Both the position numbers and the translations under genes were made by a program. A stretch of 46,074 nt of DNA, taken from NCBI RefSeq assembly GCF_001624705.1, contig NZ_JSEO01000024.1:1-46074 (forward strand). The letters are read 5' to 3'. The notes under the pieces were generated by a model, which saw nothing but the letters and a program-made list of their open reading frames with translations, was not told the origin of the DNA and searched no databases. The stretch comes from Marinomonas sp. SBI8L (GTDB lineage Bacteria > Pseudomonadota > Gammaproteobacteria > Pseudomonadales > Marinomonadaceae). Shown one piece after another: positions 2,826-41,033 of this stretch (position 1 is its first letter; every line of letters begins with the position of its first letter).

Positions 2826-3578
2826 ATGCAAAGTTCAAAAGTAGTTGTCATCACAGGATCTGGCCGTGGTATAGGGGCAACAACAGCAGAGTTATTTGCT
2901 GAGCATGGTTATGCCATCTGCCTAAACTATAAATCTCAAGCTGCGCCAGCCAATGAATTAGCTGAGAAACTCCGTTCTCAAGGTGCAAAATGCATTGTGG
3001 TTCAAGCCGATGTTGCCCAAGAAGAAGATGTAGTGCGTCTGTTTGAGCAAGTAGATAAAGAGCTGGGTCCAGTTTCTGTCTTAGTGAACAATGCAGGTAT
3101 CTTAAAGCAGCAAATGCGTTTAGAAGACATGACGGCTGAGCGTATTAATACCATCCTAATTAATAATGTAACCAGTGCTTTTTTGTGTGCCAGAGAGGCA
3201 GTTAAGCGTATGTCATTTAAATATGATGGCCAAGGAGGCTGCATTATTAATGTGTCTTCAGGGGCTGCAAAAACAGGTTCACCTAATGAATATGTCGATT
3301 ATGCAGCCTCAAAAGCCGCGATGGATGCCATGACAAGAGGCTTGTCCCTTGAGGTTGCAACTCAGGGTATTAGGGTGAATGGTGTGAGACCCGGTCTTAT
3401 TTATACGGATATGCATGCCGATGGTGGCGAGCCAGGTAGGGTAGATCGTTTGAAAGAGAAAATCCCTATGCAAAGGGGCGGCGAGCCAATTGAAATTGCC
3501 GAAGCTATTTATTGGCTCGCATCCGACAAAGCATCCTTTGCAACAGGCACTAACATCGACCTAATGGGCGGTTTATAG
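2826..3578 (+). CDS. SDR-family oxidoreductase (YgfF-like)
   Basis: 250 residues, a classical short-chain dehydrogenase. It has the cofactor motif TGSGRGIG (10-17), NNAG near 90, the catalytic Ser in VSSGA, and Tyr159-x3-Lys163 in DYAASKAA. Segments such as GEPGRVDR and IPMQRGGEP closely resemble E. coli YgfF, whose physiological substrate is not established; the group is often labelled glucose 1-dehydrogenase. It converges with the glycerate kinase gene. A NAD(P)-dependent alcohol/ketone reduction is secure as a class, the substrate is not. Confidence 0.88.
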   Translation: MQSSKVVVITGSGRGIGATTAELFAEHGYAICLNYKSQAAPANELAEKLRSQGAKCIVVQADVAQEEDVVRLFEQVDKELGPVSVLVNNAGILKQQMRLEDMTAERINTILINNVTSAFLCAREAVKRMSFKYDGQGGCIINVSSGAAKTGSPNEYVDYAASKAAMDAMTRGLSLEVATQGIRVNGVRPGLIYTDMHADGGEPGRVDRLKEKIPMQRGGEPIEIAEAIYWLASDKASFATGTNIDLMGGL

Positions 3579-4768: not shown

Positions 4769-5677
4769 TTAATAATTAAGAAAGCGAGTGAGTTGCATTT
4801 CTTTGAGTTTTTCGACAAACCAAGCTAATGCTTTTCCATGATTATCTTTACGCCAAGCAATGCATAGTTGGTGTTGTCTTGCCTCTGCATTTTCTAATCT
4901 GGGGCTAATTAATTCACCACTTTGTAAGTAGTCTTGGATTCGATGCAAAGGCAAATAACCAACACCCAATCCGAAGCGCTGAGCATCAATTTTTTTCTGC
5001 AAATCGGGTACTGTAATACGAGCTTGCCCGTCTAATAAACCTGCCGATCTTGGCGGTAAGTATCTTGAGCTATCCATAGCGACAATGGAAGGATACTGCT
5101 TGATCTTGTCAGAGGTAAGAGGCTCGGGCTCAAGACTTAAAGGATGATCTTTAGCAATGGCAAAAATGAACTCAGCCAAACCTAATGGATGGGTGTCAAA
5201 ATCATTAGTGTAGGGTTCGTCAGAAGCGCCAATGATAAGGTCGGTTTCACCCGCGCTTAAAGAATCCCAAGTGCCACCAAAGTTCTCTTGAGTGAGGCGA
5301 ATGTCTATCCAAGGGTAACTTTGTTGGAATAGGTTAATTAGATCGTAAATCGCCTGATAATGCAGAATGCTGTCCATGCATATTCTCAGCTCTAACTCCC
5401 AACCACTTGCCGCTTGTTTTGCCATATGAGTTAACTCATCACTGGCTTTTAAAATAGCGCGGCCTTGTTGCAAGATGAGCTGACCCACCTGAGTAAATTC
5501 AGCCTTACGCTTAGAGCGGTCAAATAAGGCAACGCCCAAGTCTTCCTCAAGTTTGTTGATGGTATAGGAAATAGCAGAGGGAACACGAAATAATTCATCT
5601 GCTGCTGCAGCGAAACTTTGCTTTCTATCTATCGCATCAAGTACACGTAACGCATCTAAGGTTAGCAGATTCTGCAT
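4769..5677 (-). CDS. LysR-family transcriptional regulator (YhaJ-like)
   Basis: 302 residues. The N-terminal winged HTH (about 1-62) reads LDALRVLDAIDRKQSFAAAADELFRVPSAISYTINKLEE, close to E. coli YhaJ; a LysR substrate-binding domain occupies about 90-295. YhaJ activates yqjF and is known from nitroaromatic biosensor work to respond to dinitrotoluene-derived products. Here the gene diverges from a DoxX (YqjF-class) gene followed by YhaK- and YqjG-like genes, the same families that YhaJ sits near in E. coli, which supports a conserved regulon. A perfect palindrome lies just upstream. The inducer is inferred, not shown. Confidence 0.87.
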   Translation of the reverse strand: MQNLLTLDALRVLDAIDRKQSFAAAADELFRVPSAISYTINKLEEDLGVALFDRSKRKAEFTQVGQLILQQGRAILKASDELTHMAKQAASGWELELRICMDSILHYQAIYDLINLFQQSYPWIDIRLTQENFGGTWDSLSAGETDLIIGASDEPYTNDFDTHPLGLAEFIFAIAKDHPLSLEPEPLTSDKIKQYPSIVAMDSSRYLPPRSAGLLDGQARITVPDLQKKIDAQRFGLGVGYLPLHRIQDYLQSGELISPRLENAEARQHQLCIAWRKDNHGKALAWFVEKLKEMQLTRFLNY

Positions 5678-5690
5678 TACTTCAATCCTT

Positions 5691-5707
5691 TTGAACTAAA
5701 GGTTCAA
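5691..5707. promoter_or_regulatory. Palindromic operator between the LysR gene and doxX
   Basis: TTGAAC-taaag-GTTCAA is a perfect 6-5-6 palindrome, 14 bp upstream of the LysR start codon and about 80 bp upstream of doxX. Its position between a LysR gene and its divergent operon is the classic place for the regulator's site. Binding by this LysR protein is an inference. Confidence 0.55.
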
Positions 5708-5785
5708 TATATATCGTTATTTTTTAATTAATACAGGAAATATAATCTCTCCATCGATCAAAAACAATGAAGTTTGGAGAATGTT

Positions 5786-6229
5786 ATGTCTTATTTAGAA
5801 ATGATTACCCGTTCAAATAATAGCTTTGCCGCTTTCGCTTTACGTCTACCTGTCGGTTTAACTTTCATGGCTCATGGTGCCCAAAAACTGTTTGCTTGGT
5901 TTGGTGGTTATGGCTTAGAAGGCACAGGACAATGGATGGCATCCATTGGTTTAGAGCCAGGTTATTTTATGGCGTTAATGGCAGGTAGTGCAGAGTTCTT
6001 TGGTGGTCTAGCCCTTGTATTTGGCTTTTTAGTTAGGCCTGCTGCTGCCATGCTTGCTGTCACCATGCTAGTTGCAATTTTCAGCGTACATTTTGTCAAT
6101 GGACTCTTTATGAGTAACAACGGCTATGAGTTTGCATTAGCGTTATTAGCTGTTTCAGTTTCATTGGTTGTAAGTGGCGCAGGGAATCTGTCACTGGATA
6201 AGCTGATTGCAAAAAAGCAATTCAACTAA
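5786..6229 (+). CDS. DoxX-family membrane protein (YqjF class)
   Basis: 147 residues with four predicted membrane helices and the DoxX features FALRLPVGLTFMAHGAQKLF and a glycine-rich AGSAEFFGGLALVFGF. DoxX/YqjF proteins are small inner-membrane proteins linked to redox or quinone stress; a biochemical role is not firmly defined. A TTG at 5774 extends the frame, but ATG 5786 has GGAGA six nt upstream and gives a normal start. It is the first gene of a four-gene run (DoxX, pirin, nitroreductase, glutathionyl-hydroquinone reductase) with gaps of 23, 56 and 65 nt. Probably activated by the divergent LysR. Confidence 0.9.
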   Translation: MSYLEMITRSNNSFAAFALRLPVGLTFMAHGAQKLFAWFGGYGLEGTGQWMASIGLEPGYFMALMAGSAEFFGGLALVFGFLVRPAAAMLAVTMLVAIFSVHFVNGLFMSNNGYEFALALLAVSVSLVVSGAGNLSLDKLIAKKQFN

Positions 6230-6252
6230 ACCCTTTAAGTAAGGAGCGCAGC

Positions 6253-7014
6253 ATGGAAAGGATAGAAAAACGAGATGCATCAAAACTACATTACTTAGCC
6301 AGTAGTCCGATGCATCCAGCGAATACTTATTTCCATTTCTCATTCGCGAATTATTACGATCCAAAGCGCATGGGGTTTGGTGCACTTAGAGTGTTCAATG
6401 ACGATGACATTAGCCCAAAAAATGGTTTTGGGCGCCATCCTCATAGGGACATGCAAATTATTAGCTATGTGGTGCGAGGCCAGCTTACCCATTGGGACAG
6501 TGTTACCAATACGCAAGAAACTATAGGCCGAGGCCATGTGCAGGCAATTTCAGCTGGCACAGGTTTATGGCACTCAGAAATGAATATTCATGATGAATGG
6601 TGTCGTTTTCTACAAATCTGGATTTTACCTGAGCAAGCAGGTGGTCCAGTACGCTATGAGCATAAAGCGTTCATCCCAGAAGATAGGGCTAATAAGCTAG
6701 TTCATATAGTAGGCAACCCAAGTAACAAGGCAGACGTGCCTCTATATGTGAATAGCAATGTAAACCTTTATGCCAGTGAAGTGCTTGATGATAAGAGTCA
6801 GGTTGAATTTCAGCTTAAAGCTGGTCGACAAGCTTATATCAATTGTATTGAAGGAGATCTTAACGTCACCTTAACAGCAGAAGGCCAAGTAGAAGCAAGG
6901 GCTGAAGTCTTAAGTGAAAAAGACACGCTAGAAATAAGAGATGCGCAGTCTTTGGTGTTTTCATCGAGCAAAGGCTATGGGCACTTCATCATTATTGAGA
7001 TGCCAGCAGGTTAA
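6253..7014 (+). CDS. Pirin-family protein (YhaK-like)
   Basis: 253 residues, a bicupin. The N-terminal cupin holds HFSFANYYDPKRMGFGALRVFNDD, FGRHPHRDMQIISYVVRG and ISAGTGLWHSEMN, very like E. coli YhaK; the His residues of HPHRDM and the HSE motif are the expected metal ligands. Pirins bind Fe, and some (YhhW) have quercetin dioxygenase activity; YhaK is redox-sensitive. A good AAGGAG ribosome site precedes the ATG. Second gene of the electrophile/quinone operon. An aromatic or quinone-related oxidation, or sensing, is plausible but unproven. Confidence 0.9.
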   Translation: MERIEKRDASKLHYLASSPMHPANTYFHFSFANYYDPKRMGFGALRVFNDDDISPKNGFGRHPHRDMQIISYVVRGQLTHWDSVTNTQETIGRGHVQAISAGTGLWHSEMNIHDEWCRFLQIWILPEQAGGPVRYEHKAFIPEDRANKLVHIVGNPSNKADVPLYVNSNVNLYASEVLDDKSQVEFQLKAGRQAYINCIEGDLNVTLTAEGQVEARAEVLSEKDTLEIRDAQSLVFSSSKGYGHFIIIEMPAG

Positions 7015-30411: not shown

Positions 30412-32109
30412 ATGACAAGTTCTGCAGAACAAACATTTTTAAATGACTTAGAAAAAAAGCTGTGGACAGCCGCAGATAAATTGCGCTCCACCTTAGATGC
30501 TGCCCAGTATAAACACACTGTTTTGGGTTTAGTGTTTATCAAATATGTCTCCGATGCCTTTGATATTAGGCACGCTGATTTGAAAAAGCAGCTACAAAAC
30601 CCCGAGCATGACTACTTTTTAGACCCAGAAGACTTTGGCGGTGTAGAAAGCGAAGCGTACCAAGAAGAACTCGCAGCAGAACTCGAAGTCCGTGATTATT
30701 ATGCCGAAACCAATACCTTCTGGGTGCCAGCTGGGGCTCGTTGGCAGTTTTTGCAAGACAATAACAAAACCGTGATCGGCGGTGCTGAACTTACTATTCA
30801 AAACGGTGCGAACAGTCAAGTTAAAAAGAAATTCAGCTCAGTCGGTCATCTTATTGATAACGCGCTAGAACTGATCGAAGCCGACAATGCCAAACTAAAA
30901 GGCGTATTGAACAAGCAATATACCAGATTGCAAATTGACCAAGCCAAGCTGGCTGAGTTAATCGATCTGATTGCGACGGTACCTTTTGAGAAAGAAGGTT
31001 TAGAGCTTAACTCCAAAGACATTTTAGGCCATGTGTACGAATACATGCTGGGCCAATTTGCTTTGGCAGAAGGTAAAAAGGGGGGGCAGTTCTATACTCC
31101 TAAATCCATCGTTAGCCTGATCGTACAAATGCTCGAACCCTTTAAAGGGCGAGTGTATGACCCTGCCATGGGCTCAGGTGGTTTCTTTGTGCAATCCGAG
31201 CATTTTATTAATGCCCATAAAGGTCGTATTGATGATGTGTCTATCTACGGCCAAGAGTATAACCATACCACTTGGCAGCTAGCGGCCATGAACATGGCCA
31301 TTCGTGGCATCGACTTTAATTTTGGTAAAGAGCCAGCCAGTACCTACACCCATAATCAGCACCCGGATTTAAGGGCCGACTTTGTCATGGCCAACCCGCC
31401 TTTTAACATGAAGGAATGGGATTTAGGCGTGGCAGAGGATGACCCGCGCTGGGTCTATGGCACACCGCCTTCTGGCAATGCCAACTTTGCTTGGTTGCAA
31501 CACATGCTGTATCACACGGCACCCAACGGCAGCTTAGGGCTTTTATTAGCTAACGGCTCCATGAGCTCGAATACCGGTGGTGAAGGCGATATTCGTAAAG
31601 CCCTGATTGAAAACGACTTGGTGGAATGTATGGTGGCCTTGCCCGGTCAGCTCTTCACCAATACGCAAATCCCCGCCTGTATTTGGTTTTTGACCAAGAA
31701 TAAAAAAGCGCGCACCTCGGCCAGCGGCAAAAAACTAAGAGATCGCACTGGCGAAGTGCTCTTTATCGATGCGCGCAATCTAGGTTTCATGAAAGACCGC
31801 GTACTGCGTGACTTCACCCAAGAGGATCTTAATACCGTTAGTGAGACGTTTCATGCATGGGAAACCGGACAAAATTATGATGACGAGGCTGGATTCTGTA
31901 AATCAGTCAAACTTGCTGAATTAGAAAAACACGACTTTGTCCTCACACCGGGCCGTTATGTGGGCGCTGCTGCCGAAGGGGAAGACAGCGAGCCCTTTGC
32001 CGAAAAAATGGCACGCTTAACTAGCCAGCTAAAAAGCCAATTTGAAGAATCGGATCGATTAGAAGCTGAGATTAAAAAGAACTTAGCGGGGTTGGGCTTT
32101 GATGTCTGA
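30412..32109 (+). CDS. hsdM: Type I restriction-modification, methyltransferase subunit HsdM
   Basis: 565 residues. An N-terminal helical domain (about 10-150) is followed by the N6-adenine methyltransferase: motif I DPAMGSGGFFV near 250-260, motif IV NPPF at about 328-331, and GQFYTPKSIVSLIVQML just before motif I. With two copies of HsdM and one HsdS it methylates the host site. Translation of hsdS starts within the last codons (ATGTCTGA). The ribosome site is weak, so translation may depend on the leader ORF. Confidence 0.96.
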   Translation: MTSSAEQTFLNDLEKKLWTAADKLRSTLDAAQYKHTVLGLVFIKYVSDAFDIRHADLKKQLQNPEHDYFLDPEDFGGVESEAYQEELAAELEVRDYYAETNTFWVPAGARWQFLQDNNKTVIGGAELTIQNGANSQVKKKFSSVGHLIDNALELIEADNAKLKGVLNKQYTRLQIDQAKLAELIDLIATVPFEKEGLELNSKDILGHVYEYMLGQFALAEGKKGGQFYTPKSIVSLIVQMLEPFKGRVYDPAMGSGGFFVQSEHFINAHKGRIDDVSIYGQEYNHTTWQLAAMNMAIRGIDFNFGKEPASTYTHNQHPDLRADFVMANPPFNMKEWDLGVAEDDPRWVYGTPPSGNANFAWLQHMLYHTAPNGSLGLLLANGSMSSNTGGEGDIRKALIENDLVECMVALPGQLFTNTQIPACIWFLTKNKKARTSASGKKLRDRTGEVLFIDARNLGFMKDRVLRDFTQEDLNTVSETFHAWETGQNYDDEAGFCKSVKLAELEKHDFVLTPGRYVGAAAEGEDSEPFAEKMARLTSQLKSQFEESDRLEAEIKKNLAGLGFDV

Positions 32110-33451
32110 TTGGAAAATTGTAAAGCTAACGGACATAACATCTAAGATCACGAAGGGCACAACGCCGTCAAAAAAAGATGGTGGGTTTTCAGAATCAGGC
32201 ATTAATTATATCAAGGCAGAGTCTGTTGGTTACGATGGTCGAATTGATAGTAGTAAGTTTTCATACGTTACCGAAGCCATCCACAACAAGCTAAAACGAT
32301 CACAGTTAGATGTTGATGATATTTTATTTTCTATGGCTGGTGCTCATCTTGGTAAGTCTGGGATAGTAGAAGAAAAACATGTGCCTGCGAACACTAATCA
32401 GGCTTTGGCATTGATCCGACCGAAGCAAGATATAGTTGAACCGTTATATCTACTCTACTTTTTACAGCAAAAAGAAGTTGTATATTTTGTTAATAATGCA
32501 ACATCTCAATCGGCTCAGCCAAATATTAATCTTCAACAGATAGGTAACCTTGAGATTAGATTACCTGAAATAGAAGTTCAGAAAAGCATAGTGAAGATGC
32601 TTTCTTCTTTGGATAGAAAAATCGAACTCAACCGCCAAACCAACCAAACCCTAGAAGAAATGACGCAAGCCATATTTAAAAGTTGGTTTGTGGACTTCGA
32701 ACCGACCCGCGCCAAGATGACTGCAAAAGAAACAGGTCAAGACCCAGAACTCGCGGCCATGGCGACTATTAGCGGTAAGCCACTCACTGAACTCGACCAA
32801 CTCCCTCCAGAAAAATATCAAGAACTCAAAACCACCGCTGCTTTATTTCCAGACTCACTGGTGGATTCGGAGTTGGGTGAAATACCGGAAGGGTGGGAAG
32901 TTAAAGCACTTGATAAAATTGCACATTATCAAAATGGTCTAGCTCTTCAGAAATTTAGGCCAGAAGATGAAAATGATTTTTTGCCAGTTCTAAAAATAGC
33001 GCAACTCAAGAAAGGTTTTGCCGATGGCGAAGAGAAGGCATCCCCAAATATTAAGCCTGAGTGCATAGTGGATAACGGTGATGTAGTTTTTTCATGGTCA
33101 GGATCTTTAGTTGTTGATGTTTGGTGTGGTGGAAAGGTGGCGTTGAATCAGCATCTCTTTAAGGTTACTTCGTCTGATTACCCTAAATGGTTTTATTGCT
33201 ATTGGACAAAGCGACACCTTGGCGTGTTTCAACAAGTCGCTGCAGATAAAGCTGTGACCATGGGACATATCAAGAGGAGTCATTTATCTGAGGCTGAGTG
33301 CGTAGTGCCGAATATTGAGTTGTCGAATTTTAGAATGATTGGTGATTTTATCGAAAAACAAATAGAGCAGAGATTAGAAAACACAAGTTTGGAAAATATT
33401 AGAAATTCGCTATTGCCAAAGCTTCTTTCTGGTGAAGTAAGCATTAGCTGA
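32102..33451 (+). CDS. hsdS: Type I restriction-modification, specificity subunit HsdS
   Basis: 449 residues. Two target-recognition domains (about 1-150 and 255-405), each followed by a conserved helical spacer: LSSLDRKIELNRQTNQTLEEMTQAIFKSWFVDFEPTRAKM and the C-terminal IEQRLENTSLENIRNSLLPKLLSGE. Each recognition domain opens with a DWKIVKL/GWEVKAL-type start. Defines the bipartite DNA sequence recognised; the target cannot be read from sequence. The ATG overlaps the hsdM stop by 8 nt. Confidence 0.95.
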   Translation: MSDWKIVKLTDITSKITKGTTPSKKDGGFSESGINYIKAESVGYDGRIDSSKFSYVTEAIHNKLKRSQLDVDDILFSMAGAHLGKSGIVEEKHVPANTNQALALIRPKQDIVEPLYLLYFLQQKEVVYFVNNATSQSAQPNINLQQIGNLEIRLPEIEVQKSIVKMLSSLDRKIELNRQTNQTLEEMTQAIFKSWFVDFEPTRAKMTAKETGQDPELAAMATISGKPLTELDQLPPEKYQELKTTAALFPDSLVDSELGEIPEGWEVKALDKIAHYQNGLALQKFRPEDENDFLPVLKIAQLKKGFADGEEKASPNIKPECIVDNGDVVFSWSGSLVVDVWCGGKVALNQHLFKVTSSDYPKWFYCYWTKRHLGVFQQVAADKAVTMGHIKRSHLSEAECVVPNIELSNFRMIGDFIEKQIEQRLENTSLENIRNSLLPKLLSGEVSIS

Positions 33452-33468
33452 TTAGAAAAGGATTGATT

Positions 33469-35022
33469 ATGAAAATAGGATTGTTTTTTGGAGCGGGTGC
33501 TGAAATCGGATATGGCCTTCCTTCAGGCGGTAAGTTTGCAATTGATTTGTTTAGACAGGACGTTAGTCAACATAAAACTGCGCTGAGAGAGCAACTTAGA
33601 AATATCAATCACCTTAGCCCTTATGCAGTTGATTGGTTGCCTCAGAGGTATCAGACAAGCCGAATTCATGCATTTGGTAAAAACGAATTTACCAGTTTAA
33701 TTGAGTCATCCATCGAATACCGCAAGAATGAGATCATTCGTCGATTAAATGACTTTGATACTGAAGCAGATTGGGCAATGCAGCAGCTAGGTATTGAAAA
33801 GCAGGCTCTCATCGTCCAGTTTAATAATGAGATGGAAACCGCTTTTGGAGAAGAGCTTTATGCTCATGCTGTTAGGATGAATCAAATATTAGCTAATGAG
33901 GTACAGCTATTTGGTTCTGAATTTTATTCGGCGATTCTTGATGTCATTAAACGTGGTGGTGATACAGCAAATATTCAAAGATATGCAGCAGCATTCCTTC
34001 AGTTATTGGTTGGTGCTCACGGTCAAGACTTAGTGCAGCGTTTGAATCAAGAGCTATTCGAAGCAGCACCGGATGATATCCCTATTTTTGATGACGTGAC
34101 CGGGATGTTTAAGATTGAATTTAGCCGTGCCGGTATGACGGCATTGGAATTGCTTCTAGAAGAGCGCCATGAGTTTGATACAGAAAATGGTGATGTGGCT
34201 GAACTTATATGTGCTGTTGCTCAACAAATGTTAGAAAATATCTTCACAACTGTCTTGGATTATCAATCGTTAATCGACAACCATTTTCGTTATATCTACT
34301 CACCAAAAACTGAGTGGGCTAAGTTTACCAAGATGGTAGTGTTTTTAAGGGCAACAAGAGAATATATAGTTCAACAACTTGAAGGTGCGGGAGAGCTACC
34401 GGAGCAGGGGTATTACCATGACTTGCAGCAATGCGAAGAATTAGGTGTAGAAATCGAGGCTGTTGGTACAGCTAATTATAACAATTTAGTTGAATCGATA
34501 TCCGAGCAGATAGGATACGATCTGCCTGATGTTAAGCACTTAAACGGTGGAGTGAAGGACTATTATAATCCTTATAAAAATTCAGTGGTGACCATTGATA
34601 ATGCCGATGACGTGCCTAAAGATCAAATACATGTTCCGTTTATATTGACACAAAGTGGTTTGAAGCCTTTAACCTCCGTTGATATGTCGAGGCGTTATGT
34701 GGGCCTATATGATCAGTATCAAGGTGCAGATGCAATCATTGTTATTGGATACGGTTTTAATATTGACGATAGCCATATTAATGGACTGTTTCGGCAATTA
34801 ATTGAAGAAGCGGGTAAGCATTTATATTGGATCAGCTTGGCTACTGAGGGGGCTGCAGAACACCAAAAAAGAAACTTGGTGAAGCGACTGCGTATAAGTT
34901 CAGAGAACAGAGCAAAAGTCACTGTTATTCCTGTTGGTGCAGAATCTCGTTGTATTCAAGACCAAAATTGGTTAGAGCATATTGTACAAAATCATCAAGA
35001 AAATGGTGGTGCGGTTGCATGA
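33469..35022 (+). CDS. SIR2-like protein inside the type I R-M operon
   Basis: 517 residues. N-terminal GLFFGAGAEIGYGLPSGG (residues 4-21) is the nucleotide-binding start of SIR2-like proteins (GAGAS...GLP). Later come GTANYNNL (near 333-340, the TNYD-type motif), HLNGGVKD where active SIR2 proteins have HG, and IIVIGYGFNIDDSHIN (near 423-438). The middle ~300 residues are a helical insertion with no family I know. SIR2-like domains in defence proteins deplete NAD+ and stop infected cells. ATG 33469 has AAAAGGA upstream; the stop overlaps the hsdR start as ATGA. It is thus translated as part of the R-M operon. Confidence 0.85.
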   Translation: MKIGLFFGAGAEIGYGLPSGGKFAIDLFRQDVSQHKTALREQLRNINHLSPYAVDWLPQRYQTSRIHAFGKNEFTSLIESSIEYRKNEIIRRLNDFDTEADWAMQQLGIEKQALIVQFNNEMETAFGEELYAHAVRMNQILANEVQLFGSEFYSAILDVIKRGGDTANIQRYAAAFLQLLVGAHGQDLVQRLNQELFEAAPDDIPIFDDVTGMFKIEFSRAGMTALELLLEERHEFDTENGDVAELICAVAQQMLENIFTTVLDYQSLIDNHFRYIYSPKTEWAKFTKMVVFLRATREYIVQQLEGAGELPEQGYYHDLQQCEELGVEIEAVGTANYNNLVESISEQIGYDLPDVKHLNGGVKDYYNPYKNSVVTIDNADDVPKDQIHVPFILTQSGLKPLTSVDMSRRYVGLYDQYQGADAIIVIGYGFNIDDSHINGLFRQLIEEAGKHLYWISLATEGAAEHQKRNLVKRLRISSENRAKVTVIPVGAESRCIQDQNWLEHIVQNHQENGGAVA

Positions 35023-38000
35023 TCACGGAAGACCAGCTAGAACAACTCTGCCTTAAATGGTTTCAAGATATCGGTTATTACACAGTTTGCGGTTATGACA
35101 TCGCCCCAGGAGAAGCCGCTGCCGAGCGGGATAACTATCGCCAAGTCTTGTTGCATGCTCGTTTACTAGCTCAACTTGAAGTCATTAACCCTCAAGTGCC
35201 TCTCGCCACCTTAGAGCAAGTTGCTCAGCAAATCGCAAAAGCAGATACGCCCATTTTAACTAAGAACAACCGTGCTTTTTATAAGTGGCTGTTAGAAGGA
35301 GTGAAGGTTGAGTACAAGGACGCAAAAGGGGTTGAGAAAATCGATTATGTGAGATTAATCGATTTTAAGCAGCTAGCTAACAATCAGTTTTTAGTGGTCA
35401 ATCAGTTCACTATTACAGGGTCTAAGGGGAATCGACGCCCTGACTTGTTGGTTTTTATTAATGGTCTGCCGCTGGCCGTTATTGAGCTGAAAAATCCAAA
35501 AGACGAGCAGGCGGATATCTGGTCGGCTTATCAGCAGTTACAAACCTATAAAGAGGAATTGTCTGATTTATTCATCTTCAACCAAGCCTTAATTATTAGT
35601 GATGGCATTAAAGCAAGGCTCGGTTCTTTAACGGCAAATAAAGAGCGCTTTCAACCTTGGCGTGTGATCAAGAATGAAAAAGACAGACCCAATGATAAGC
35701 TTGAATTAGAAACCTTGGTTCGGGGCTTTTTTGAGCCTGAGTATCTTTTGGATTTTGTGCAAAACTTCATCCTCTTTGAAGAAAATGAATCCGGTGACTT
35801 GATTAAAAAAGTAGCCGGTTACCATCAGTTCCATGCGGTGAGAGCGGCGGTGCAAAGCACCATACTCGCAAGTAGAACTGCAACCCCCATTGAAAGTACG
35901 CTTGATGAAGTGGCTGAGCAGTCTGTTCTTTATGCGCTCTCTAATCAGCCTAAGACGGCTAGCATATACCAAGGGGAGTTAGCGCAAATTGAACTCGCCT
36001 CGGGTAAGGCGGGGGTGGTTTGGCATACTCAAGGCAGTGGTAAGTCTATCTCCATGTTGTGTTATGCGGCTAAGTTGTTGGCACAACCTGAAATGAATAA
36101 CCCCACCATAGTGGTGGTAACAGACCGAAATGATTTAGATGGCCAGCTGTTTAATACCTTTGTGACCGCCGCAGACACCTTAAAACAAACACCGATACAG
36201 GTGGATGATAGGGAAGCACTAAGAGAAGTATTAGGTTCTCGCCAAGCGGGTGGCATCTTCTTCACCACGATTCAAAAATTCGGCTTGATGACAATTGACG
36301 GCGTAGAAGAGAGCCGGTTTCCGACCTTGAGTGAACGGGGCAATATTGTGGTGATCAGTGACGAAGCCCACCGTAGCCATTACGGGGAAAAGGCCAAGCT
36401 GAAAACCAAAAAAGATAATGACGGCAAGGTGATTAGCGCCAAGTATACCCATGGTTATTCTAAGTATTTACGTGACGCCTTACCCAATGCGGCTTTTATT
36501 GGCTTTACGGGCACCCCGATTGAACAGGGTGACAAGATAACAACCAGTGTCTTTGGTCCGAAGATTTCCACTTATGATATTCAAGATGCAGTAGATGATG
36601 GTTCTACCGTGCCTATTTATTATGAATCTCGTTTGGCTCGCCTCAATATAAAAACCGAGAAGCTTTATACCTTGGATGATGAAGTGGATGAGGTGATTGA
36701 GGACGAAGAAGACAGCGGTAAACGCGAGCAAACTAAATCCAAATGGGCAGCTCTTGAAAAGCTAGTGGGGGCGGAAAACCGCATCAAACTGGTGAGTCAA
36801 GATTTGGTGCATCATTTTGAATTGCGTAATAGCACCTTAGACGGCAAAGCCATGATAGTGTCCATGAGCCGTGACATATGTGTGGCCATGTACGACGCTA
36901 TAGTTGCCCTAAGGCCCGATTGGCATCATGCCGACCCTGAGAAGGGCGCCATTAAAATTGTCATGACAGGTTCAGCCTCAGATAAAAAAATACTGCAGCC
37001 TCATATTCATGATAAGAAAACCAAAAAGCTGTTTGAAAGGCGCTTCAAAGATGTGAATGACCCGCTAAAAATAGTCATTGTACGAGACATGTGGCTCACA
37101 GGTTTTGATGCACCAAATTGCCATACTATGTATTTAGACAAACCCATGAAGGGCCATAACCTGATGCAGGCGATTGCGAGGGTTAACCGAGTATTTAAAG
37201 ATAAACCCAGTGGTTTGGTGGTGGACTATATCGGCATAGGTAATGAGCTAAAAGAAGCGCTTAAGGTATATACCAATGCGGACGGTAAAGGCAAAACCAC
37301 CTTGAACACTGAAGAAGCTTTGGCGGTGTTTATGGAGAACATGGATAAGTTACATGGCCTGATGCACGGTTGTGATTATGCTGGGTTTGAGCAAGAGCCC
37401 TTGTTACTTTTCCCAAAAGTGATGAACCATATCGCCTCAATTGAAAGCCCAGTTAAAAATGATAAAGGTAAGGGCAAGCTCGATGGTAAAAGCCGTTTCT
37501 TAGATATCATGGCAAACATTCGAGCGGCTTATACGCTTTGCGCTACGTTAGATGAAGCTAAGCCCTATTCCAAAGAAATTGCCTTTTTCGATGCAATAAA
37601 AGCGGCCATTTGCAAAAGCACCAATGTAGACAAAAAACGCAATGATGAGGCGAAGCATTCGGCCCTTAAACAGATTCTCGATAACGCCATCGAAACAGAA
37701 AGTGTTGATAATATTTTTGAGCTGGTGGGCTTAGAGAAACCTAATATCGGTTTGTTATCGGAAGGCTTTCTTGAAGACCTTGCCAATATTGAGCATAAAA
37801 ACCTTGCGGTAGACCTGCTTGAAAAACTGCTTAAAGATGAAGTGAAAGCGCGCATGAGCACAGATGTGGTCTCTGAGAAAAGCTACACAGACAGAATCAC
37901 CGAGACAATGCGCAAATATCATAACCGCGGTATTGAATCTGCCCATGTGATTGAAGAGATGATTCAGATGGCCAAAGACATGGCCAATGATGCTGAACTT

Positions 38001-38300
38001 GCCAAAAAAATGAACCTCAACTCTGATGAAGTTGCCTTCTATCGTGCGCTGATTCAAAACGAATCGGCAGTGAAAGAGTTAGGTAATAACAACTTAAGAG
38101 AACTGGCTAAATACGTTACTGGCCAACTTAGAAAATCCACCACTGTCGATTGGCAAGTACGAGACAGTGTACGGGCCAAACTACGTAACCTAGTACGTCG
38201 AGCATTGCGAAAATGGAAATACCCACCGGATAAAGCCGACGAAGCCATAGAGCTTTGCCTAAAACAGGCCGAAGCCCTGAGTAACAGCTGGAGTGTGTAA
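35019..38300 (+). CDS. hsdR: Type I restriction-modification, restriction subunit HsdR
   Basis: 1093 residues. The N-terminal nuclease domain has D141 in RRPDLLVF and VIELKNP (about 155-161), the PD-(D/E)xK site. The translocase follows: Walker A TQGSGKS at about 337-343, DEAH at 447-450, FIGFTGTPIE, and a second RecA lobe with LTGFDAP and QAIARVNRV. The C-terminal part (about 850-1093) is helical and should bind HsdM. Cuts DNA distant from unmethylated sites after ATP-driven translocation. The start codon overlaps the SIR2 stop by 4 nt (ATGA); the frame extends upstream but MITEDQLEQLCLKWF is the family-like start. Confidence 0.96.
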   Translation: MITEDQLEQLCLKWFQDIGYYTVCGYDIAPGEAAAERDNYRQVLLHARLLAQLEVINPQVPLATLEQVAQQIAKADTPILTKNNRAFYKWLLEGVKVEYKDAKGVEKIDYVRLIDFKQLANNQFLVVNQFTITGSKGNRRPDLLVFINGLPLAVIELKNPKDEQADIWSAYQQLQTYKEELSDLFIFNQALIISDGIKARLGSLTANKERFQPWRVIKNEKDRPNDKLELETLVRGFFEPEYLLDFVQNFILFEENESGDLIKKVAGYHQFHAVRAAVQSTILASRTATPIESTLDEVAEQSVLYALSNQPKTASIYQGELAQIELASGKAGVVWHTQGSGKSISMLCYAAKLLAQPEMNNPTIVVVTDRNDLDGQLFNTFVTAADTLKQTPIQVDDREALREVLGSRQAGGIFFTTIQKFGLMTIDGVEESRFPTLSERGNIVVISDEAHRSHYGEKAKLKTKKDNDGKVISAKYTHGYSKYLRDALPNAAFIGFTGTPIEQGDKITTSVFGPKISTYDIQDAVDDGSTVPIYYESRLARLNIKTEKLYTLDDEVDEVIEDEEDSGKREQTKSKWAALEKLVGAENRIKLVSQDLVHHFELRNSTLDGKAMIVSMSRDICVAMYDAIVALRPDWHHADPEKGAIKIVMTGSASDKKILQPHIHDKKTKKLFERRFKDVNDPLKIVIVRDMWLTGFDAPNCHTMYLDKPMKGHNLMQAIARVNRVFKDKPSGLVVDYIGIGNELKEALKVYTNADGKGKTTLNTEEALAVFMENMDKLHGLMHGCDYAGFEQEPLLLFPKVMNHIASIESPVKNDKGKGKLDGKSRFLDIMANIRAAYTLCATLDEAKPYSKEIAFFDAIKAAICKSTNVDKKRNDEAKHSALKQILDNAIETESVDNIFELVGLEKPNIGLLSEGFLEDLANIEHKNLAVDLLEKLLKDEVKARMSTDVVSEKSYTDRITETMRKYHNRGIESAHVIEEMIQMAKDMANDAELAKKMNLNSDEVAFYRALIQNESAVKELGNNNLRELAKYVTGQLRKSTTVDWQVRDSVRAKLRNLVRRALRKWKYPPDKADEAIELCLKQAEALSNSWSV

Positions 38301-38351: not shown

Positions 38352-38374
38352 ACAAAGATGGGTAGTTGCTTGAT

Positions 38375-39802
38375 ATGTTGGATGTAGTAAGTGAATTCGT
38401 AATTGTTTTTTCTAAAAAATTTTATTTGAATGCGATAACGTTAGGAAAATCAATAAAAATAATTTTAACAACTCCATATGTTTTTATGATAACTAGGGAA
38501 AACTATAAGTCTATTGTTTTAGTTGGAACATTTATATTATTAGTAGTGACTTCAATTTCTGACTATCAATTTAGACGTGAAGCAAATAAGTTAACTTTAT
38601 TGAATGAGATTAATAAAAGTTGGAGTGTAGTTCAAGACAAAACCTCATCGGTTAGATCTCGACATTTAAATAACCTAAATGAAAACGATCCCGATATGAA
38701 GGATTTAATTCTAAAAGGGGATAGGGAGAATAGTCATGCTCTAATTGATATAAAACTATCAAATAAGGACATGAAAATAAATTTCACCGACATTGGATTC
38801 TATCAAATAAAACTTATTGAAAGTTATATTTTTGCATCAAAAATACAAAACTCTTTTTTATTAAACTATAATATTAAAGACTTAGTGGTAGAGCGCTTGA
38901 GTATTGTTGATTCCTATTTAGTTGGTGAGTCTAGAGAAAGTGAATTTCATAATTTAACTGCTGAAAATTCATTTTTAGTATTTACATTAAATAAATACTT
39001 AAATAAAAGGTCTAATATTATTGATGATATTCTAGTTAAAGATTCAGTTTTTATAGTGTCAGATAAATTTGATTTAATTGAGGCTAATGTATTAAATAGT
39101 TGTTTTTACATTAATATGAATAATGGTGCTTTTAGAAGTGTTAGCTTTGAAAATGACTATGGCACTGATAAATGTAATAGTGTATTAGGAATTAATGATG
39201 CTGATTTAAAAGATACTATGTTTAAAGGAATAGACTTTATTGGACTTGAATTTTATGAAGTTAATATGGAAAATGTAGAGTTTAATTCTGTCAATACAAG
39301 TTTTGTTAATAATGTAGAAAAATTTAATGCTTATGATAAAATCAATTTGATGGGTGATAAGATTTTTGGGCGTTCATTGTTTGAAGATTTTTTTAATGAA
39401 AAGGTAAAGCGAAACTATAAAACTGTATTTATGAATATCGCTTCTAAAAATAAAAGGACTGAAAATGTAAGTAGGGCTTATTTTACTAGATCTAAACTAG
39501 TAGATGTTGATTTTAAAAGGAGTAGGATGGAGAGATCTTTTTTTACTAATTCAATTCTCAATAATGTTAGCTTTATTGAAACCGACTTAATGAACTCTAA
39601 ATTTATCGAAAATGAAATGCTGAATATAAACCTTACTGGTAGTGATATCTCTGGTGTAGATTTTTCAACATCGACACTAACTTGGTTCGATGAAAAAACT
39701 AAAAAACCGCTTGATGCGTGTACAGAGTTTAAGAAAGCAAAAAATTGGCATTTATCAATACGGCCAAAAAGTTTAGCGTGTGGTGAAAAAATACCAAATT
39801 GA
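38375..39802 (+). CDS. Membrane-anchored pentapeptide-repeat-like protein
   Basis: 475 residues, much richer in A+T than the R-M genes. A single membrane helix at about 46-63 (VLVGTFILLVVTS) follows a hydrophobic N-terminus; the rest is dominated by short beta-helix steps such as ARMERSFFTNSILNNVSF-like, NINLTGSDISGVDFSTSTL and LKDTMFKGIDFIGLEFYEVNMENVEF, resembling degenerate pentapeptide repeats (A/N-x-L/F-x-x). No catalytic motif. ATG 38375 is preferred over a TTG at 38366, though neither has a good ribosome site. Foreign-looking; possibly a defence or immunity accessory, which is only inference. Confidence 0.7.
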   Translation: MLDVVSEFVIVFSKKFYLNAITLGKSIKIILTTPYVFMITRENYKSIVLVGTFILLVVTSISDYQFRREANKLTLLNEINKSWSVVQDKTSSVRSRHLNNLNENDPDMKDLILKGDRENSHALIDIKLSNKDMKINFTDIGFYQIKLIESYIFASKIQNSFLLNYNIKDLVVERLSIVDSYLVGESRESEFHNLTAENSFLVFTLNKYLNKRSNIIDDILVKDSVFIVSDKFDLIEANVLNSCFYINMNNGAFRSVSFENDYGTDKCNSVLGINDADLKDTMFKGIDFIGLEFYEVNMENVEFNSVNTSFVNNVEKFNAYDKINLMGDKIFGRSLFEDFFNEKVKRNYKTVFMNIASKNKRTENVSRAYFTRSKLVDVDFKRSRMERSFFTNSILNNVSFIETDLMNSKFIENEMLNINLTGSDISGVDFSTSTLTWFDEKTKKPLDACTEFKKAKNWHLSIRPKSLACGEKIPN

Positions 39803-40031: not shown

Positions 40032-41033
40032 ATGCCTAAACCAAGAAAATCTTTAATAAGCCTTCAAGATACACCTTACTATCACTGTGTTTCACGTTGT
40101 GTGAGGCGCGCTTTTCTCTGTGGCCAAGATGAACAGACAGGCCAAAGTTACGAACATAGACGTGGTTGGATAGAGGATAAGATATTCTCTCTTGAAGCTA
40201 TCTTTGCAATAGATGTATGTGCTTATTCGGTCATGCCCTTTTTTAGGGAAGCATACCCATTTAGTGCTTCATGTGAATGAAGATGAAGCGAATAATTGGT
40301 CTATTAAACAGGTACTTGAGCGCTGGCATTCTCTTTAACTTCAGATAAGCATAAATGCACCCAGTTCACGCAAAAGTATCTAGAGAACAAAGTCTTAGAA
40401 GAGTTTGAGCTAGCCTCTGTTTATGATAGCTGTGAGAAGTACCGTAAACGTTTAATGGACATAAGTTGGTTTATGCGAGAGCTCAATGAATCTGTAGCGC
40501 GTATGGCTAACAAAGAAGATAAATGTACAGGACGATTTTGGGAAGGTCGCTTTAAATCTCAAGCCTTGTTGAATGAAGCCGCGCTAGTATCATGTATGGC
40601 TTATGTTGACTTAAATCCTGTACGCGCAAAGATGGACAAGACACCTGAAACTTCAAAACATACAAGTATCAAGACTCGTATTGAAGTCGCCAAAGCGAAT
40701 CAGACGCAACCCAAAAACTTATTTCCTTTTATTGGTTATGAAAGAGAAGATCAGCCCCAAGGCTTGCCTTTTAAACTTACTGATTACCTTGAATTAATTG
40801 ATTTAACGGGGAGGTTGGTGAGAGAAGATAAAAGAGGATCGTTGGATATCTCCTTGGCTCCAATTCTTCAGCGAATCAATCTTACATCAGAGCAATGGTT
40901 AGAGGTTTCAACAGGGTTTGAAAAGCATTTCACCACAGCTGTTGGGTCTGACAGGCAATTGGCTAAGTACTGCCAACATACTCATATTAAAAGGCGGCCC
41001 AATTTAACTACATGTAGAAGACTTTTGTCTTAA
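40032..41033 (+). pseudogene. REP-associated Y1-type (IS200-like) transposase, frameshifted
   Basis: MPKPRKSLISLQDTPYYHCVSRCVRRAFLCG and the later CTGRFWEGRFKSQALL and MAYVDLNPVRA are the marks of the TnpA-REP/Y1 transposase group common in marine gammaproteobacteria. The frame is broken twice: after YSVMP at about 40230, where CCCTTTTTTAGGG replaces the residues just before the catalytic HTH (HTHLVLHVNEDEANNW continues in another frame from about 40250), and again near 40338 (a stop after WHSL; SDKHKCTQFTQKYL continues). The third part, to TCRRLLS, is intact. The protein should be inactive. Confidence 0.85.

Follow-up and report, generated by a model that had tools for sequence, protein, structure and literature searches.

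The SIR2-like gene of the window, the 46,074-nucleotide stretch of Marinomonas sp. SBI8L DNA analysed here, is best explained as a mobile defence-type module, one autonomous gene that rides as cargo between hsdS and hsdR of a type I restriction-modification (R-M) operon, a reading to which we assign a probability of roughly 0.6. Two routes of spread are proposed, one in the form of integron cassettes and one through insertion into R-M operons, where the packed layout suggests a landing place with steady co-expression. The protein combines a modelled SIR2 fold and an intact nucleotide-binding frame with an altered active site, in which GAGAE has Glu and Asn replaces both the Asp of NYD and the catalytic His; its helical insertion, some 295 residues long, would most likely sense infection or drive assembly. 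The pocket may perform non-standard chemistry on NAD+ or a related nucleotide, or act as a ligand-holding switch, and the output would be growth arrest of infected cells. We infer the defence role, the autonomy, the ligand, sensing by the insertion and the toxicity of the protein alike.

The gene (33469..35022, + strand; 517 amino acids) sits between hsdS and hsdR in an otherwise whole type I operon. It is preceded by hsdM (30412..32109, +), which encodes the methyltransferase subunit (N6_Mtase 1.5e-108; HsdM_N 1.7e-20), and by hsdS (32102..33451, +), whose specificity subunit contains two target-recognition domains (Methylase_S, two stretches, 1.1e-32); it is followed by hsdR (35019..38300, +) for a HindI-like restriction subunit (T1RH-like_C 1.9e-106; HSDR_N 4.1e-49). 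The AAAAGGA at 33456..33462 (+) is the likely ribosome-binding site of the SIR2-like gene, and its stop overlaps the hsdR start within the ATGA at 35019..35022 (+). The window sequence thus confirms the packed hsdM-hsdS-SIR2-like-hsdR order, the 517-residue frame and the ATGA overlap given in the initial annotation; its identification of the product as SIR2-like is borne out by the structure model, and operon membership and a defence-type setting are supported. Just 3′ of hsdR, an ORF of 478 amino acids with a TTG start (38366-39802) carries C-terminal pentapeptide repeats (Pfam Pentapeptide_4, 6e-14). Further on, a 192-residue ORF (40455-41033), whose letters we take to resemble a piece of a REP-associated transposase, may mark an island edge.

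The predicted model of the window protein displays the SIR2 Rossmann fold. No model in Pfam, NCBIfam or PADLOC fits the protein across its length, and it misses the curated cut-off of Pfam SIR2_2 (PF13289) with 16.5 against 24.5 bits. In the nucleotide-binding motif GAGAE (residues 8-12; codons 33490..33504, +), Glu replaces the usual Ser of GAGxS in 29/29 covering family rows. A profile alignment of the family against SIR2_2, the latter represented by up to 17 proteins from relatives of the window's host, pairs NYN with NYD and LNG with LHG at a probability of 96.6%. On this alignment, the GTANYN stretch (residues 333-338; 34465..34482, +) presents N336 as the Asn of TTNYD and N338 at the site of the usual Asp, and N359 of HLNGG (34543..34545, +) occupies the site of the catalytic His of SIR2 NADases. 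By secondary structure, the mainly helical insertion (residues 30-326; 33556..34446, +) lies between the first two SIR2 strands; it is possibly a sensor or oligomer domain, and its model, folded alone, gave no clear structural match.

These replacements are uniform in the family. The catalytic His of the LHG motif is Asn in all 30 aligned members, and the nicotinamide-binding Asp (the Asp of TTNYD, D135 of DSR2) is Asn in 27 and Ser in three. N336, the catalytic Asn of the NYD motif, is kept in 30/30 rows, G8, G10, D433, D434 and H436 are retained in the alignment, and E12, Q395 and K399 are invariant in all rows covering them. As a control, SIR2_2 proteins were examined at 20 loci out of 29 matches, and the motif pair could be read in 19 (none in L062): 18 have His and one (L061) Asn, and all 19 have Asp, with a pattern that permitted only His/Asn and Asp/Asn/Ser, so that a third residue at the His site would escape, and with some of the proteins near relatives of one another. 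The His is also retained, as FHGG, in two distant sister proteins, L041_6 (435 amino acids; L041 7761-9068; 24% identity over 245 columns) and L045_7 (444 amino acids; L045 7508-8842; E 3.9e-6 against the family profile). Because these sisters keep FHGG, the change from His to Asn is likely derived, and their family of about 440 amino acids offers a means of tracing how the His was lost. They resemble the family in having an acidic residue in GAGVD, as in GAGAE, but differ in keeping the His. Among close family pairs dN/dS is 0.03-0.19 (9 of 10 pairs; dS was not computable for L013/L020), and the altered protein is therefore maintained by purifying selection. The window's own genome also encodes another SIR2_2 protein, of the ordinary kind, whose large open frame contains TTNFD and LHG (L055; genome G000, contig 11, 51600-52040).

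The residues replaced here matter in characterized relatives. According to PMC10981675, the NADase activity of DSR2 drops when N133 or H171 is changed to Ala, and function is said to suffer significantly from Ala at D135 or W59; in FAM118 proteins, His and Asn are reported to be required (PMC12700824). The replacement of His and Asp, set beside these needs of DSR2 and FAM118, argues that ordinary NAD+ hydrolysis by the window protein is unlikely. Consumption of NAD+ by the usual SIR2 mechanism, as the initial annotation proposed, is accordingly at odds with an alignment in which His is replaced by Asn, and Asp by Asn or Ser, in all 30 members. Compared with the SIR2_2 defence NADases (ThsA, DSR2, the SIR2 of SIR2-HerA, KomBC), the window family differs further in having GAGAE for GAGxS and in its helical insertion. 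A caution follows from the loss of needed residues in every aligned member despite strong purifying selection: a SIR2-like gene in a defence locus need not be an NAD+-burning suicide gene.

Homologues of the gene are rare yet taxonomically widespread. A single scan of genome contigs with exact peptide patterns, which captures close relatives only, returned 21 family loci. Family matches were found in 9 of 72,556 plasmid records, in 6 of 5,426 E. coli genomes at the DNA level, in 2 of 144 genomes of relatives (the window's own included), in 1 of 369 genomes of the class sample (the window's own), and in 5 of 390 and 3 of 398 of the order and phylum samples, each of these two counts comprising the own genome and one distant match. 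Hosts include Bacillota, Verrucomicrobiota, Ignavibacteriota and a MAG labelled Flavobacteriales, and copies in different bacterial families share 91-97% protein identity. The genus-mate genome G006 carries the same gene as the Marinomonas foliarum locus L013. Duplicate finds were merged (L003/L035, L013/L033, L020/L040), and E. coli matches H11-H13 and E. faecalis matches H2-H4, near copies by the listed scores, were left out of the locus set.

Thirty-three loci were sorted by genomic context (the window, L002-L022, L023-L025, L026-L031, L039 and L044): 16 are linked to type I and two to type III systems, six (L002-L007) are, or resemble, integron cassettes, four are neither, and five remained unsorted, in a set that does not amount to 33 independent events (L028/L029 are 96% and L023/L024 94% identical). 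The unsorted loci comprise a short contig (L008), two partial copies (L017, L021), a copy split by an IS66-type element (L018) and one cut beside IS1 (L025). No R-M gene was seen near the SIR2-like gene at L022, L026, L027 and L044, where the search at stand-alone loci used BLAST against the window hsd proteins and a small reference set, Pfam on selected neighbours, and annotation where present, so that distant R-M genes could escape. A maximum-likelihood tree places the window in a 12-row set with L002-L008 and L039 (96/94). The 11 other rows of this branch are six integron cassettes or cassette-like copies, L039, three R-M/Septu clusters and one unsorted locus. At least six changes between R-M-linked and unlinked settings are needed on the tree, whose deeper nodes are unsure because of long branches.

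Outside the gene, pairs among L002-L008 and L039 are homologous only for about 35-47 bp on its upstream side and 35-74 bp on its downstream side (on neither for L008). In L002, L004 and L007 the upstream homology begins at a GTTACATC junction, and a TAA...CGTT inverted repeat lies downstream. In L004, consecutive genes on one strand are joined by CGTTA junctions at 6917, 7963, 9574, 11008 and 11592, and L003 contains three attC-like pairs (660-708, 2298-2363 and 2953-3001). Overall, attC-like sites or junctions flank both sides of the gene in L002, L003, L004, L005 and L007, and an attC-like end is present at the 3′ side only in L006 and L039. The idea that the stand-alone copies are accompanied by a conserved partner was dropped, as the 1-kb flanks of eight loci have only cassette ends in common.

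Bottom-strand folds of these ends are attC-like at L003 (z -2.6; 3/200 shuffles as good), L002 (-2.4; 6/200) and L005 (-2.0; 8/200), strongest at L039 (-6.0; 0/200), and weak at L006 (-1.8; 7/200), L004 (-1.3; 21/200) and L007 (-1.3; 21/200). The end of L008 has no attC-like fold beyond shuffles (z -0.3); for the window copy the scan detected no attC-like pair at the gene, and the sequence on its 3′ side gives a fold that does not beat shuffles (z +0.93). The genomes of L002, L003, L004 and L005 contain an integron integrase that passes the TIGR02249 cut-off (4/9, against 0/14 controls), and none passes it in those of L006, L007, L008, G711 (L039) and the window. Matches below the cut-off, which occur in 9/9 genomes and 14/14 controls, were read as ordinary tyrosine recombinases and discarded. 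The strict attC motif (RYYYAAC, GTTRRRY) gave almost no matches, and a relaxed scan gave matches near the shuffled expectation at many loci; given these poor motif scans, the cassette assignment is drawn from shared boundaries, CGTTA junctions, folds and integrases combined.

At L039 (8235-9820, genome G711), the SIR2-like gene lies right behind the hsdR of another type I operon and ends in the attC-like 3′ site described above; it is possibly a cassette inserted outside an integron. An integron cassette normally brings a single gene that has to function by itself, an argument for the SIR2-like protein having an output of its own.

We consider it possible, and put it forward tentatively, that the proteins form an undescribed SIR2 family in which the Glu of GAGAE, N359 and a conserved TQSGxKPxTS loop make up a new, His-free site acting on NAD+ or another nucleotide, with the gene moving between integron arrays and R-M operons and L039 representing a cassette caught beside a type I operon. 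If true, L039 would show a route by which integrons supply defence genes to R-M cargo slots. The His might be dispensable for some SIR2 reactions, and the control L061 also has Asn there, both of which count against the favoured reading of a cargo module with a rebuilt pocket.

A more doubtful proposal is that the SIR2 fold is a dead scaffold without catalysis, which would serve as a sensor or decoy for nucleotides and act through a host partner. The loss of His and Asp alongside retention of N336, G8, G10, D433, D434 and H436 would fit it, as would a PDB title naming a KomBC(H146N) complex with NAD fragments; that title suggests an inactive form, in which Asn at such a site can block turnover yet permit binding. 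However, the seven stand-alone copies and L039 have, cassette ends aside, no common neighbour within 1 kb, so that any partner must be a host protein, and the invariance of E12, Q395 and K399, where covered, points to more than a scaffold. As to chemistry, the dead scaffold and the autonomous cargo module overlap.

The surroundings of the R-M-linked copies bear on autonomy. Eight of the 16 type I-linked copies lie between hsdS and hsdR (the window, L012, L014, L015, L016, L019, L020 and L030). Four directly follow hsdS with no downstream hsdR (L013, L028, L029 and L031, the last with hsdR upstream of the SIR2-like gene), and four occupy other positions (L009, L010, L011 and L039), with no hsdR in the stretch examined at L009 and L010. 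In E. coli, the gene follows type III mod and res at L023 (PADLOC MTase_III 3e-281; REase_III 2.7e-9, weak) and at L024, assigned by annotation and clustering. On whether homologues lie mostly outside R-M operons, a check named in the initial annotation, the answer is split: 18 of the 28 assessable loci are beside R-M genes, and the position between hsdS and hsdR is held by eight, with R-M types and positions differing. At the Vibrio locus L009 (and at L010 by clustering), PtuA, PtuB and a PLD-domain protein are among the neighbours, and at the Photobacterium locus L011 a PtuA-like ATPase; RhuM and YgjP-like genes recur, and DUF1016 and DUF6161 appear once each. At L012, a 494-residue protein with no Pfam or PADLOC match at E 0.001 is encoded between hsdS and the SIR2-like gene (4878-6362).

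Some copies accompany broken or partial R-M sets. The copy at L019 is full length (501 amino acids) beside shortened hsdM, hsdS and hsdR, hsdS is in two pieces at L030, and in the stretches examined L013 has no hsdR and L028 and L029 have hsdS only; this argues for independence of the SIR2-like gene. An alternative that we consider improbable makes the protein an accessory part or regulator of the R-M system: it would bind HsdS or HsdM to adjust restriction, with the cell's NAD state read by its SIR2 pocket. Ten of the 16 type I-linked copies follow hsdS without an intervening ORF of at least 90 amino acids (L015 after a 343-nt gap), which could reflect a real HsdS partnership and counts against autonomy. 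A lone hsdS that directly precedes the gene on two Lactococcus plasmids also speaks for such a role. Such a role, however, sits poorly with the type III partners in E. coli, with the cassette-like copies without hsd genes, with the four loci at which no R-M gene was seen, and with HsdM and HsdR neighbours that are only about 26-39% identical to those of the window over the aligned pieces.

The operon itself was followed through its HsdR relatives (E up to 1e-100), which occur in 30 of 293 order genomes as 31 matches, the window's own among them. Slot contents were determined at 19 of the 30 other matches. The 12 close operons among them (HsdM 61-82% and HsdR 57-69% identical to those of the window; two from one genome) all carry other genes in the hsdS-hsdR gap, none matching the SIR2-like family. 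At least one cargo protein with a match to a known or candidate defence family in Pfam or PADLOC was found in 10 of the 11 close operons scanned, labels that are not fully independent, since PADLOC candidate families are partly picked by genomic context. The kinds of cargo are Hhe, DUF4917/PDC-S21, SoFic (twice), RhuM-Fic with Abi_2, Mrr-type PDC-S02, DUF4268/PDC-S11 with Abi_2, HEC-01 with DUF4276, a ThsA-like SIR2_2 protein and an AbiJ-like protein. The cargo of L100 has no Pfam or PADLOC match, and the same holds for some genes in the other ten (two in L099); that of L098, outside the 11 scanned, agrees in length and N-terminus with the cargo of L096. Among more distant operons (HsdM 43-52%), six of seven gaps are filled, and the empty gap, at L114, lies between fragmented hsdM and hsdR genes. 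From these filled gaps it follows that the hsdS-hsdR gap of the window's operon family is a general cargo slot rich in defence-type genes. The proposal of a dedicated back-up arm of the window's restriction enzyme finds no support here, since 12 of 12 close relatives carry other cargo in the slot and the family itself varies in R-M type and position and includes cassettes.

A canonical NAD+-hydrolysing suicide arm triggered by failure or inhibition of restriction, in the manner of PrrC guarding EcoprrI, is the least probable reading: the predicted SIR2 fold, the embedding and coupling in the operon and the reported precedent of PrrC, which guards from within a type I locus (PMC12707154), speak for it, but the catalytic His and Asp are replaced in 30/30, the reported H171 and D135 substitutions in DSR2 (PMC10981675) weigh against activity, the family also occurs with type III genes and in integron-like settings, and the operon relatives hold other cargo. 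Individual family copies may possibly have a PrrC-like guard role, although the distribution does not suggest it. Compared by locus position only, PrrC/EcoprrI and the window gene are both extra genes inside a type I locus (PMC12707154), whereas the window family is not confined to one type I kind and is also found with type III genes and away from R-M genes.

The cargo module has counterparts in described systems. DarTG2 is reported between hsdS and hsdR in EPEC, at a site called a potential recombination hotspot (PMC12255303), and TgvAB in the V. cholerae VPI-2 cluster and RloF between hsdR and hsdS in C. jejuni (PMC11411939). The window gene shares the same or a similar type I position but belongs to a different protein family, and the slot contents are counted here over the relatives of one operon family. 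SIR2/HerA genes adjoining R-M systems are reported in Streptococcus thermophilus (PMC11514479), and phage-defence cassettes in integrons by the Darracq/Littner and Kieffer studies, as related in PMC12409362. Like the latter, the close relatives L002-L005 and L007 each consist of a single gene with an attC-like site on either side; by contrast, the window copy lies in an operon and lacks attC.

Both elements, a SIR2-family protein and the embedding of a defence-type gene in an R-M operon, are already known in kind. As far as our searches show, what is new is the family, the absence of the catalytic His throughout its aligned members and its dual occurrence as integron-type cassette and R-M cargo; no description of the family came up in the literature searched, in which integron defence cassettes were covered through PMC12409362. 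One gene family hereby ties together two exchange systems, integron cassettes and the hsdS-hsdR cargo slot, and its chemistry and transfer route are now directly testable.

Two slots of operon relatives merit separate description. In L100 (7267-8300), two slot genes of 184 and 160 amino acids, without Pfam match at E 0.001, form a possible unknown pair. In the close relative L106, the slot is occupied by a different, ThsA-like SIR2_2 gene (4880-6085, - strand). Of the SIR2-like proteins in the same slot of other operons, that of L106 keeps the His in LKLHG, and so, by eye, does the DUF4917 protein of L097 in YPHG, DUF4917 being a family that we take to be SIR2-like.
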